Assembly: GCF_003355155.1 (NCBI RefSeq)
Contig: NZ_CP031320.1
Coordinates: forward strand, 1,784,369-1,848,368
Direction of reading: 5' to 3'
From: Streptomyces armeniacus
Lineage (GTDB): Bacteria; Actinomycetota; Actinomycetes; Streptomycetales; Streptomycetaceae
DNA: 64,000 nt
In this document: in pieces, positions 30,228 to 34,219 of the stretch
Numbering within the stretch: position 1 is the stretch's first letter
How the letters are laid out: every line of letters starts with the position of its first letter
Translations under genes and position numbers: made by a program
Notes under the pieces: model-generated
The model's input: the letters and a program-made list of their open reading frames with translations, nothing else
What the model was told of the DNA's origin: nothing
Database searches by the model: none

Positions 30228-30768
30228 GGGCGCTCCTCTGCTCGGGGTGTGCTCCGGGTCCGCCGCGAATCCGCTCCGGCGTGTTCCGCTCCGGTGCTGA
30301 CGAGGGTGTGGCGGATGGTTTCTGCCGACCATACGACATTGGGTGCCAGGGGTAATCAGCCGTGCGATCCGGTCTGTGCGGAAGGAGGTGCGGCGGGCGC
30401 GCATATGCCCTTGTCGACATTCCGACTACGGCCCTGTACGGTCCCGATCCCGCTGTCCAGCCCTGCCGTACGGCATGCTCACGCACATTCCGCTTCGCGG
30501 CTCCAACATGGCGGGAATTGGTCGTGTCCGGCCTTCACAGTCGGGCAGACCAGGTAACTTCCGCATTCCGCAAGCGAGTTATGATCTGTGCGCCCGGTCA
30601 ATCGTGTGCCCGACGAGTTCACCCGTTAGGAGCTGGCGAGGGGTGGCGAATATGTCATCAGCGCCCGCTCGGCGCCGTAGTGACAGCTAGCGTAGCCACG
30701 GCGCTGTGAGCGTCCGGCGTGCCTCGAGCAGGCCCTTCAGACAGACCTCAAGCCAACCGAGGAAACCG
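30228..30768. other. 541-base intergenic leader region
   Basis: Between the divergent phosphatase and sensor-ATPase genes. A possible sigma-70 -10 box TATGAT occurs at 30,580-30,585, but its -35 partner is weak. A 15-codon frame (GTG at about 30,643 to 30,690, MANMSSAPARRRSDS) with GAGGGG upstream could be a leader peptide. A long 5' leader is therefore likely. Nothing else was recognised. Confidence 0.3.
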
Positions 30769-32721
30769 ATGCCTGAACCCCCGAGCCATTCGGTGCAGAC
30801 AGGAAGGGGAACGTCCGCTCCCGTAGGTGCCGCGGCCGTCCCCTCCAGCTCGAACGGGCCCCGTGCGCGGCACGGCAGGATTCCGGTGCGCGAGAGCGCC
30901 GGTGACGCCGCGATGCGGCACCGCATGGTCCGGCTCGCCGTCCTCCCCGCCGCGATCGTGGCCGTCACCGCGAGCGCCGTGATCGCCTTCGTCATGCGCG
31001 ACCAGGGAGGCGTCGACGCCACCGGTGCGCCCGCGTCGGCCACCCTCTGGGGCGTGCTCGCCGGATCGCTGCTGCTCACCTGCGCGGTGGTGGTGGGGGC
31101 CGCGCTGTTCGCCTCGACCGAGGCCCGTACGACCGTCGAGCGGTACGGCCAGCTGCGCCGGTCCTCCGAGCGCGGCCAGACCGAAGTACGGGCCCAGCTG
31201 CGCAGGTTGGAGCAGGGCGAGCGGCCGCGCATCCCCGGGCCGCCCCCGGAGCTCGAGCCCGCCGGCGACGCGCTGGACCGGCTCGGGCACGAGCTGACGC
31301 TCGCCCAGCACACCGCCGAGGCGGCGGTCGCGGAGGCCGCGGCGCTCGTACGCGCGGGCAGCAGCGGCAGTGACGAGAAGGTCGAGGTGTTCGTGAACCT
31401 CGCGCGCAGGCTCCAGTCGCTGGTGCACCGCGAGATCGAACTCCTGGATGAACTGGAGAACGAGGTCGAGGACCCGGATCTGCTCAAGGGACTGTTCCAC
31501 GTCGACCACCTCGCCACCCGCATCCGGCGGCACGCGGAGAACCTTGCCGTGCTCGGCGGCGCGGTCTCCCGGCGGCAGTGGACCCGGCCCGTGACGATGA
31601 CCGAGGTGCTGCGCTCCTCGATCGCCGAGGTCGAGCAGTACTCCCGGGTGAAGCTGGTCCCGCCGATTGAGGGCACGCTACGCGGCCACGCCGTCGCCGA
31701 CGTCATCCACCTGCTCGCCGAGCTGGTGGAGAACGCGACCATCTTCTCCGCCCCGCAGACCACCGTTCTGCTGCGCGCCCAGCACGTGACCGCCGGCCTC
31801 GCCGTCGAGGTGGAGGACCGCGGCCTGGGCATGGACGCGAACGAGCAGAACCGGATGAACGCGCTCCTGGCCGACCCCGAGCAGTTCGACGTCGGCGAAC
31901 TGCTCTCCGACGGCCGGATCGGCCTGTTCGTCGTCTCCGCGCTCGCGCGCAGGCACGGCATCGTCGTCCAGCTGCAGAGCAACATCTACGGCGGCATCCA
32001 GGCGGTCCTGGTGCTGCCGCGGCCCGTGCTCGGTGACACGGCGGACACTTCCAAGCAGTCCGCCGCACAGCCCGCACAGCCCGCACAGCCCGTGCCGGCC
32101 GCCGTGCCGCAGCGTACGGGCGTACCGCAGGGCCAGCTCCAGAGCGCGCAGCACGGCTACCCGCTGGGCCACCCCCAGGGTCAGGAGCACCAGCGCGCGG
32201 CGGCGCCGAACGGCGTGCCGCAGCAGCAGCCCGGCCAGCCCCCGCAGCCGGTCCACCACGGCCAGCCGCAGAGTCCCGCGCCGCAGATCCCGGCGCAGAC
32301 GCACGGCCGGGCACGGCCCCAGGAAGCGGAGCACGTACGGGCGCCCGCGCCCGAGAGCGTACGGGCCGGCGGCCCGCCCCCCGGTCCGCCGCAGCAGCCG
32401 CCGCCACGGGCGCAGCAGCCCGCGCCCCCGCCGGCGGCCGCACCCGGCGAGCGCCCGCAGCTGCCCAAGCGGCGCCGTCAGGAACACCTCGTGCCCGAGC
32501 TGCGCGACGGCCCGCGGGCGCAGGTGACCACGGATGAGCCGGACGCAGGTCACGACCCAGGTCTGATGGCCGCGTTCCGCCGGGGCACCAGCCTCGCGGA
32601 CGAGTCCGACGGCACCGACGAGACCCACCCGACCCACACCGCCCCCAAGACCCGTCCGCCACCGCCGCAGCCCGCATACGCATATGACTCGTTGATCCTC
32701 ACCACACCTACACACTATTGA
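30769..32721 (+). CDS. conservon-type sensor histidine-kinase-like ATPase (CvnA-like)
   Basis: 650 residues. Two membrane segments lie in the N-terminal quarter (LAVLPAAIVAVTASAVIAFV and WGVLAGSLLLTCAVVVGAAL). A helical region follows, then an HATPase_c domain at about 310-430 with LLAELVENATIFSAP and EDRGLGMDANEQ, and DGRIGLFVVSALARRHGI. The C-terminal 220 residues are Pro/Gln/Ala-rich and disordered. This is the layout of CvnA proteins, which normally head an operon with a roadblock protein (CvnB), a DUF742 protein (CvnC) and a small GTPase (CvnD). None of those follow here, because an adapter-like junction begins 36 bases after the stop. ATG 30769 follows GAGGAAA. Confidence 0.85.
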   Translation: MPEPPSHSVQTGRGTSAPVGAAAVPSSSNGPRARHGRIPVRESAGDAAMRHRMVRLAVLPAAIVAVTASAVIAFVMRDQGGVDATGAPASATLWGVLAGSLLLTCAVVVGAALFASTEARTTVERYGQLRRSSERGQTEVRAQLRRLEQGERPRIPGPPPELEPAGDALDRLGHELTLAQHTAEAAVAEAAALVRAGSSGSDEKVEVFVNLARRLQSLVHREIELLDELENEVEDPDLLKGLFHVDHLATRIRRHAENLAVLGGAVSRRQWTRPVTMTEVLRSSIAEVEQYSRVKLVPPIEGTLRGHAVADVIHLLAELVENATIFSAPQTTVLLRAQHVTAGLAVEVEDRGLGMDANEQNRMNALLADPEQFDVGELLSDGRIGLFVVSALARRHGIVVQLQSNIYGGIQAVLVLPRPVLGDTADTSKQSAAQPAQPAQPVPAAVPQRTGVPQGQLQSAQHGYPLGHPQGQEHQRAAAPNGVPQQQPGQPPQPVHHGQPQSPAPQIPAQTHGRARPQEAEHVRAPAPESVRAGGPPPGPPQQPPPRAQQPAPPPAAAPGERPQLPKRRRQEHLVPELRDGPRAQVTTDEPDAGHDPGLMAAFRRGTSLADESDGTDETHPTHTAPKTRPPPPQPAYAYDSLILTTPTHY

Positions 32722-32757
32722 ATGAGCCGGCGACCCCGGGGATCTCACCTGAGGCCA

Positions 32758-32790
32758 CGGTCGGCGGCGTCAGGAGTGTATAAGGGACAG
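32758..32790. other. Nextera/Tn5 adapter-like sequence, probable assembly chimera junction
   Basis: The 33 bases match the synthetic Nextera read-1 transposase adapter at 27 positions. The last 19 bases (32,772-32,790) match the Tn5 mosaic end at 16 of 19. On the minus strand it encodes CPLYTPDAADRG, close to the well-known adapter peptide CLLYTSDAADE. The sequence directly after it is the middle of a gene. Substitutions are mostly towards G/C, as if a consensus had been pulled towards the genome's composition. Confidence 0.8.
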
Positions 32791-32792
32791 GG

Positions 32793-33122
32793 GTGTGCCT
32801 CGGGCACGAGCTGATCGCCGCCGAACTGGGCCTGGAACTCGTCCGCAAGGCACGCCCGTACCAGGGCGCGCAGGAGCGGATCGACCTCTTCGGACGCGCC
32901 GAGACGGTCGGCTTCTACAACTCGTACGCCGCGCACTGCCCGGACCGGACCGCCGACCGGCTCGCCCTGCGCCACGTCGAGGTGAGCCGGGACGGCGGCA
33001 GCGGCGAGGTGCACGCGCTGCGCGGACCGGGCTTCGCGGGCGTGCAGTTCCACCCGGAGTCCGTGCTGAGCCTGAACGGCGCGGAGATCACGGCGGAGCT
33101 GCTGGCCGCCGTCCACGTCTGA
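32793..33122 (+). pseudogene. anthranilate synthase, C-terminal glutamine amidotransferase fragment
   Basis: Only the last ~109 residues remain. They start with the class I amidotransferase nucleophile CLGHE and contain the HPE motif (VQFHPESVLS) that completes the Cys-His-Glu triad. This is the C-terminal end of a fused anthranilate synthase (TrpE-TrpG or PhzE type), which normally exceeds 600 residues. The chorismate-binding domain and the start of the amidotransferase domain are missing because homology begins at the base after the adapter-like stretch. The real gene is probably intact in the organism and broken only in this assembly. Confidence 0.85.
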
Positions 33123-33142
33123 ACGGACTCCGGTACGAGCGC

Positions 33143-33179
33143 GGTGCCCGGGGCACGGGGCTGGTCGGCCCCGGGCACC
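33143..33179. terminator. bidirectional hairpin between anthranilate synthase end and pfkA
   Basis: A perfect 12-bp inverted repeat, GGTGCCCGGGGC / GCCCCGGGCACC, with a 13-base loop, between convergent gene ends. Confidence 0.65.
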
Positions 33180-33190
33180 TCGCACGCCGG

Positions 33191-34219
33191 TCAGCCGAAG
33201 AACACGCCCGCCTCCTCGTACAGTTCGGGCGAAACCGTCTTCAGCTTGGCCGTCGCTTCCGCGAGCGGCACCCGCACGATGTCGGTGCCGCGCAGCGCCA
33301 CCATGGTGCCCCAGTCGCCGTCCCGCACCGCGTCGATCGCGTGCAGCCCGAAGCGGGTGGCGAGCCAGCGGTCGAAGGCGCTGGGCGTGCCGCCGCGCTG
33401 GATGTGCCCCAGCACGGTCGTACGCGCCTCCTTGCCCGTACGCGCCTCGATCTCCTTGGCGAGCCACTCGCCGACGCCGGACAGCCGGACGTGCCCGAAC
33501 GAGTCCTTCGACCCGTCCTTCAGCACCATCTGGCCGTCCTTGGGCATCGCGCCCTCCGCGACGACCACGATCGGCGCGTAACTCGCCTTGAACCGCGACT
33601 CCACCCAGCCGCAGACCTGCTCGACGTCGAAGCGCTGCTCGGGGATGAGGATGCAGTTGGCGCCGCCCGCGAGGCCGGAGTGCAGGGCGATCCAGCCCGC
33701 GTGCCGGCCCATGACCTCCACCACCAGCACCCGCATGTGGGACTCGGCGGTGGTGTGCAGCCGGTCGATGGCCTCGGTGGCCACATGGACGGCGGTGTCG
33801 AAGCCGAAGGTGTAGTCGGTGGCGGACAGGTCGTTGTCGATGGTCTTGGGCACGCCGACGCAGTGGATGCCGAACTCGTCGGTGAGCCGGGCCGCCACAC
33901 CGAGCGTGTCCTCACCACCGATCGCGATCAGCGCGTCGACCTCGTGCTTGGCGAGGTTCTCCCGGATCCGGCGGACGCCGTTCTCCTCGTTGAACGGGTT
34001 GGTACGCGAGGAGCCCAGGATCGTGCCGCCGCGCGGCAGCGTGCCGCGGACGGCGGGGATGTCGAGCGGCACGGTGTCCCCCTCCAGCGGACCGCGCCAT
34101 CCGTCCCGGAACCCGAGGAAGCCATAGTCGTACTGCTGAACTCCTTTACGGACCACGGCCCGCATGACCGCATTGAGCCCGGGGCAGTCTCCGCCACCGG
34201 TCAGCACTCCGACCCGCAT
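33191..34219 (-). CDS. pfkA: 6-phosphofructokinase
   Basis: 342 residues. Motifs are GVLTGGGDCPGLNAV (N terminus), GGEDTLGVAARL (about 100-111), VPKTIDNDLSATDYTFGFDT and MGRHAGWIALHSGLA (fructose-6-phosphate binding). GGEDT is the actinobacterial ATP-type form rather than the GGDDT of pyrophosphate-dependent enzymes. It phosphorylates fructose-6-phosphate in glycolysis. ATG 34219 follows GAGAAGGGAA. It is monocistronic and convergent with the anthranilate synthase fragment. Confidence 0.95.
   Translation of the reverse strand: MRVGVLTGGGDCPGLNAVMRAVVRKGVQQYDYGFLGFRDGWRGPLEGDTVPLDIPAVRGTLPRGGTILGSSRTNPFNEENGVRRIRENLAKHEVDALIAIGGEDTLGVAARLTDEFGIHCVGVPKTIDNDLSATDYTFGFDTAVHVATEAIDRLHTTAESHMRVLVVEVMGRHAGWIALHSGLAGGANCILIPEQRFDVEQVCGWVESRFKASYAPIVVVAEGAMPKDGQMVLKDGSKDSFGHVRLSGVGEWLAKEIEARTGKEARTTVLGHIQRGGTPSAFDRWLATRFGLHAIDAVRDGDWGTMVALRGTDIVRVPLAEATAKLKTVSPELYEEAGVFFG

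Follow-up and report, generated by a model that had tools for sequence, protein, structure and literature searches.

The window (the whole stretch of 64,000 nucleotides that was analysed, bases 1784369-1848368 of the 8,083,249-base single contig of the Streptomyces armeniacus genome, G000) carries an assembly artefact and not biology. The gene content is in keeping with Streptomyces. A run of 33 odd bases in the window is the last part of an Illumina Nextera adapter, blurred but present at full length. This adapter almost certainly marks a false join, in a record where noisy, adapter-bearing contig starts and ends were fused into one pseudo-chromosome.

The sequence-only reading of this DNA had reported 27 matches in 33 between positions 32758-32790 and the 33-base Nextera Read-1 transposase adapter, and 16 in 19 for the 19-base Tn5 mosaic end (32772-32790). 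Both counts were reproduced. At ≤3 mismatches the mosaic end occurs at this one site only in the 64 kb window, and in none of 100 dinucleotide-shuffled windows. The 33 bases stand as adapter, but the proposed left limit at 32758 does not, as the match runs on leftwards through a barcode and P5 to 32721. In local alignment, 32721-32790 pairs with the entire Nextera i5 oligo, i.e. P5, barcode and Read-1, with a score of 78, while the top score of 60 shuffled adapters on both strands of the whole window is 38. P5 plus barcode alone, aligned with the 157 bases preceding Read-1, scores 38, which none of 1000 shuffles equalled (largest 34), and P5 is found at the correct distance from Read-1 (alignment 32721-32748). 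The letters of P5, Read-1 and eight i5 indices were taken from the oligo table of PMC5861650. Among these indices, CTAAGCCT fits the window copy best (78 vs. 74 for GTAAGGAG), a small lead seen in a single copy. The minus-strand peptide CPLYTPDAADRG, which had been likened to an adapter translation, is present in the ORF at 32745-33467; the adapter peptide LLYTSDAADE was not found in our literature search. It should be noted that the window copy is imperfect, with 6 mismatches in 33 bases as well as indels in P5 and barcode. It is too degraded for a clean adapter, and its adapter origin therefore had to be shown via the family of copies described below.

Table 1. Features at the join (window positions) and best matches of the two flanks in five single-contig relatives.
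Feature	Position	Strand	Basis
HATPase_c ORF, 671 aa, left of the join	30706..32721	+	Pfam domain
AT-richer stretch outside P5	32674..32720	.	32674-32719: 21 of 46 bases G/C (manual count)
Degraded Illumina P5, one base absent	32721..32748	+	Local alignment
Degraded i5 barcode, best fit CTAAGCCT, one surplus base	32749..32757	+	Alignment; 45-copy index consensus
Degraded Nextera Read-1 transposase adapter, mosaic end 32772-32790	32758..32790	+	27/33, 16/19
C-terminal fragment of chorismate-binding/GATase class I fusion, truncated by the adapter	32790..33122	+	Pfam, tblastn with L090
Best flank matches in G005	left 6.71 Mb, right 1.66 Mb		
Best flank matches in G007	left 6.28 Mb, right 2.48 Mb		
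Best flank matches in G009	left 8.44 Mb, right 2.62 Mb		
Best flank matches in G013	left 7.61 Mb, right 2.52 Mb		
Best flank matches in G015	left 7.06 Mb, right 1.99 Mb		

The right flank opens inside a gene. The last G of the adapter (32790) doubles as part of the first codon of the GATase fragment and, among the matches listed, homology to relatives starts at this very base in at least 22 other genomes, with eight further rows starting 2 to 54 bases later. In the numbering of a homologue of 667 aa from a relative (L090), the window holds residues 558-667 (tblastn). Residues 1-549 of the same protein match the S. armeniacus genome at 2030622-2032358 on the minus strand, 213 kb from the window fragment (tblastn), where an adapter at 2030561-2030628 (alignment score 80) cuts this far part of the fusion, such that the last two of the matched residues already translate adapter. 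Since residues 1-549 and 558-667 each end in adapter, they are one gene split over two contig ends, with about ten codons missing between the two parts. No second match to the window fragment was reported in the genome besides the fragment itself. The far part has an in-frame stop near its upstream end, and the true start is thus nearer the ATG at 2032202. In addition, the truncated synthase bears a false, adapter-derived C-terminus, CLCYTLHIGRCRR, at G000:C1:2030561-2030628, a peptide that could enter protein databases.

The left flank ends in an ORF with a HATPase_c domain, whose product we take to be sensor-kinase-like, of the conservon type. Across 23 loci of relatives, the best tblastn alignment of this protein stops at residue 632-657 in 19, at about 470 in L060 and L082 (468 and 471), at 665 in L081 and at 670 in L069; these ends are rough because the tail is proline-rich and the filter was off. 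At the nucleotide level, blastn homology with the relative L092 stops at window 32607. Roughly the final 14-39 codons before 32721 are therefore probably not the gene's own but noise, and the AT-richer stretch outside P5 (Table 1) is probably read noise from past the end of the molecule. Judging from the sequence, the last true base of the left contig would be somewhere within about 32608-32720. A search of 32601-32725 for a reverse Read-1, Read-2 or P7 adapter found none above shuffles.

The expected neighbour of this kinase gene is found elsewhere in the record. In the one relative examined (L093), a roadblock/LC7 gene directly follows the HATPase_c homologue. The best match to that roadblock gene in the S. 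armeniacus genome, by which our roadblock gene is named (not by Pfam), is at 7645712-7646125 with 78% identity, the next best having 47%, and it sits 5.8 Mb from the left-hand kinase gene. Beside it, at 7646179-7646240, is another adapter (alignment score 56). The mosaic end of this adapter points away from the roadblock gene, and hence the adapter is part of the next contig, beyond the junction; like the end of the kinase contig, the roadblock contig's own end shows no recognisable adapter.

Alignment of each side separately to relatives, which had been proposed as a check on the join, gave a consistent picture. In all five adapter-free single-contig relatives of the same genus, the best matches of the left and right flanks lie 3.8-5.8 Mb apart (Table 1), and weaker paralogue matches occur in several of the five. 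The suspicion that two separate regions were joined is thus borne out by the right gene being cut at the adapter, by the partners of both flanks being elsewhere and by the relatives' flanks being megabases apart. If adapter bases had instead slipped into a correct stretch, the flanks would be true neighbours, in line with the window being free of any N. This is highly improbable, as the remainder of the GATase gene and the gene expected downstream of the kinase are both elsewhere, each at an adapter, and no match outside the S. armeniacus genome spans both flanks among the matches listed. Streptomycete-type chromosomes do rearrange, and a true rearrangement in this strain might have coincided by chance with a contig break carrying an adapter. 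Such a coincidence is very unlikely, since the adapter is the very point where the right gene breaks off, its two adapter-ended parts add up to almost all 667 residues of the relative's protein, and an adapter would be needed at the partner site too. Because the join is false, gene order is not to be read across the window adapter, and the earlier warning against synteny inference at this point is upheld by the false adjacency.

The adapter recurs throughout the record. At ≤3 mismatches, the genome has 92 mosaic-end-like sites (51 forward and 41 reverse), 53 of them beyond 7.0 Mb, and the reversed pattern used as a control has 0. Likewise, 15 sites match a 20-base stretch of the Read-2 adapter, and none match its reversed control. 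Ten pairs of neighbouring mosaic-end-like sites are less than 200 bp apart, and all ten are oriented minus then plus, the arrangement that arises when two contigs are fused with their adapters meeting outer end to outer end. The last 400 kb contains six N runs (47, 59, 47, 3033, 4334 and 1328 bases), so that gaps are present inside the ‘single contig’ as well as direct joins. The three longest of these runs are at G000:C1:7956667, 7990915 and 8032086, respectively.

We then surveyed 45 distinct Read-1 copies with ≤8 mismatches (loci L001-L058, the window copy included). As the copies were chosen on Read-1, the Read-1 agreement is inflated, while P5 and barcode played no part in the choice. P5 agreement over ungapped positions is 0.55, compared with 0.23 for reversed P5. 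The barcode consensus of the 45 copies is CTAGGCCT, which agrees with CTAAGCCT at 0.65; for the seven other i5 indices the agreement is 0.13 to 0.34. The lower agreement of barcode and P5 than of Read-1 fits read-through of the insert into late cycles, to which the selection of copies and uncounted indels contribute. The previously noted drift towards G/C holds for the family, with 134 of 216 Read-1 substitutions going from A/T to G/C. Outside P5, the adjoining 40 bases average 55% GC, vs. 77% on the insert side, and 11 of the 20 printed copies have a run of at least four T within 20 bases (manual count). A T run is expected where reads pass the end of the molecule. One mosaic-end copy, L046 (G000:C1:7836327-7836360), has a long G run in place of the remaining adapter and lies 154 bases away from a copy in the opposite orientation; here the assembly has taken up the low-quality tail of a read.

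Mosaic-end-like sites are present in 12 of 41 genomes, S. armeniacus included, and absent from the other 29. Eight draft relatives (G008, G017, G027, G028, G030, G032, G035 and G037) have 4-16 sites each, and G011 and G020 have one each. Contig positions were listed for six of the draft relatives, the sites of G008, G011, G017 and G020 being counted without positions. In these six, none of the 39 plus-strand sites listed starts further than 112 bases into its contig, and all 17 minus-strand sites fetched (of 33 listed) end ≤65 bases from the contig end. The pattern in the draft relatives is that of untrimmed adapters on contig ends before fusion. Nine of the 41 genomes are single contigs, and only two of these nine have sites: S. 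armeniacus and G012, a contig of about 9.0 Mb with 162 sites. In G012, sampled as 20 Read-1 copies of 22 sites at ≤3 mismatches, the barcode consensus is GGGGTAGA and the best-fitting index is AGAGTAGA (agreement 0.65, others at most 0.33). P5 agreement there is 0.38, weaker than in S. armeniacus and given without a reversed control, and two of the 20 copies run into N. The sequence that differs between the copies of the two genomes sits at the position of the sample barcode. G012 is probably a second falsely complete genome of the same genus, to be treated as a draft.

These observations bear on two natural origins for the 33 bases, both of which have a negligible probability. The first is the end of Tn5/IS50 or of another transposon, as the mosaic end would suggest. 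Here the match continues into the synthetic Read-1, barcode and P5, and there are 92 sites with a best-fitting barcode that differs between genomes; furthermore, the N-terminal domain of Tn5-type transposases (PF14706) has no match in the S. armeniacus genome, with the control positive in 1 of 14 genomes, that of E. coli. A Tn5/IS50 end, already doubted in the sequence-only reading, is ruled out by the P5 and barcode beside the mosaic end. The second, a natural dispersed repeat family of the genus, would explain why one genome holds many diverged copies, as expected of an old repeat, and is ruled out by the barcode and the contig-end pattern: 29 of 41 genomes lack sites, the examined sites of draft relatives are at contig ends, the difference between the two single-contig genomes falls at the sample barcode, which a natural element would not imitate, and the letters are those of a commercial oligo listed in the PMC5861650 table.

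For the false join between adapter-bearing contigs, we infer the following course of events. Short Nextera fragments may have been read through into the i5-side adapter, and trimming may have missed those copies that were rich in base-calling errors. Where coverage gave out, the assembler would have extended contig ends into noisy adapter reads, and hence a contig would begin with P5-barcode-Read1 before its genomic bases, or end in the reverse complement. The contigs would then have been laid end to end into the 8.08 Mb pseudo-chromosome, with N gaps at some joins only, whether by software (the assembler or a scaffolder) or by hand. Window 32721-32790 is one of these contig starts, with a contig on its left that comes from another part of the genome; reads clipped at 32790 would be expected to show CTGTCTCTTATACACATCT.

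To what had been read from the window, the analysis adds how far the oligo extends, which barcode it probably carries, where the partners of its two flanks lie and evidence that the whole record is a chain of contigs. At the window join, it is unsafe to rely on gene order, on operon or cluster boundaries, on truncated genes or on predicted proteins; this probably applies to most of the record's 92 similar sites as well, and the 8.08 Mb single contig is to be regarded as a draft. Among the records that a literature search on adapter contamination of assemblies listed, none could be tied to this genome. Two of the nine single-contig genomes searched look like such fused drafts, with differing best-fitting barcodes. 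It is rather likely that falsely complete actinomycete genomes form a class in species-representative sets, namely fused short-read drafts whose adapters are too blurred for exact screens. Scanning for the mosaic end at ≤3 mismatches, controlled by the reversed pattern, picks out such records at once.

Among known sequences, the window site shares 16 of 19 bases with the Tn5/IS50 mosaic end; unlike Tn5/IS50, its mosaic end runs into a synthetic oligo, in a genome where a PF14706-type transposase was not found. It resembles the Illumina Nextera i5 adapter (P5, i5 index and Tn5-A/Read 1) in the order, length and letters of all three parts. It differs from the clean adapter in many substitutions and some indels, Read-1, on which the copies were selected, being less affected than P5 and barcode. 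The oligos in the PMC5861650 table additionally carry a 10-base UMI, which the window adapter lacks. A further parallel is with adapter-contaminated contig ends of draft assemblies, where the orientation is the same as here, plus at the start and minus at the end; unlike in those drafts, the contigs here have been fused, and the adapters are buried within a chromosome that looks complete.
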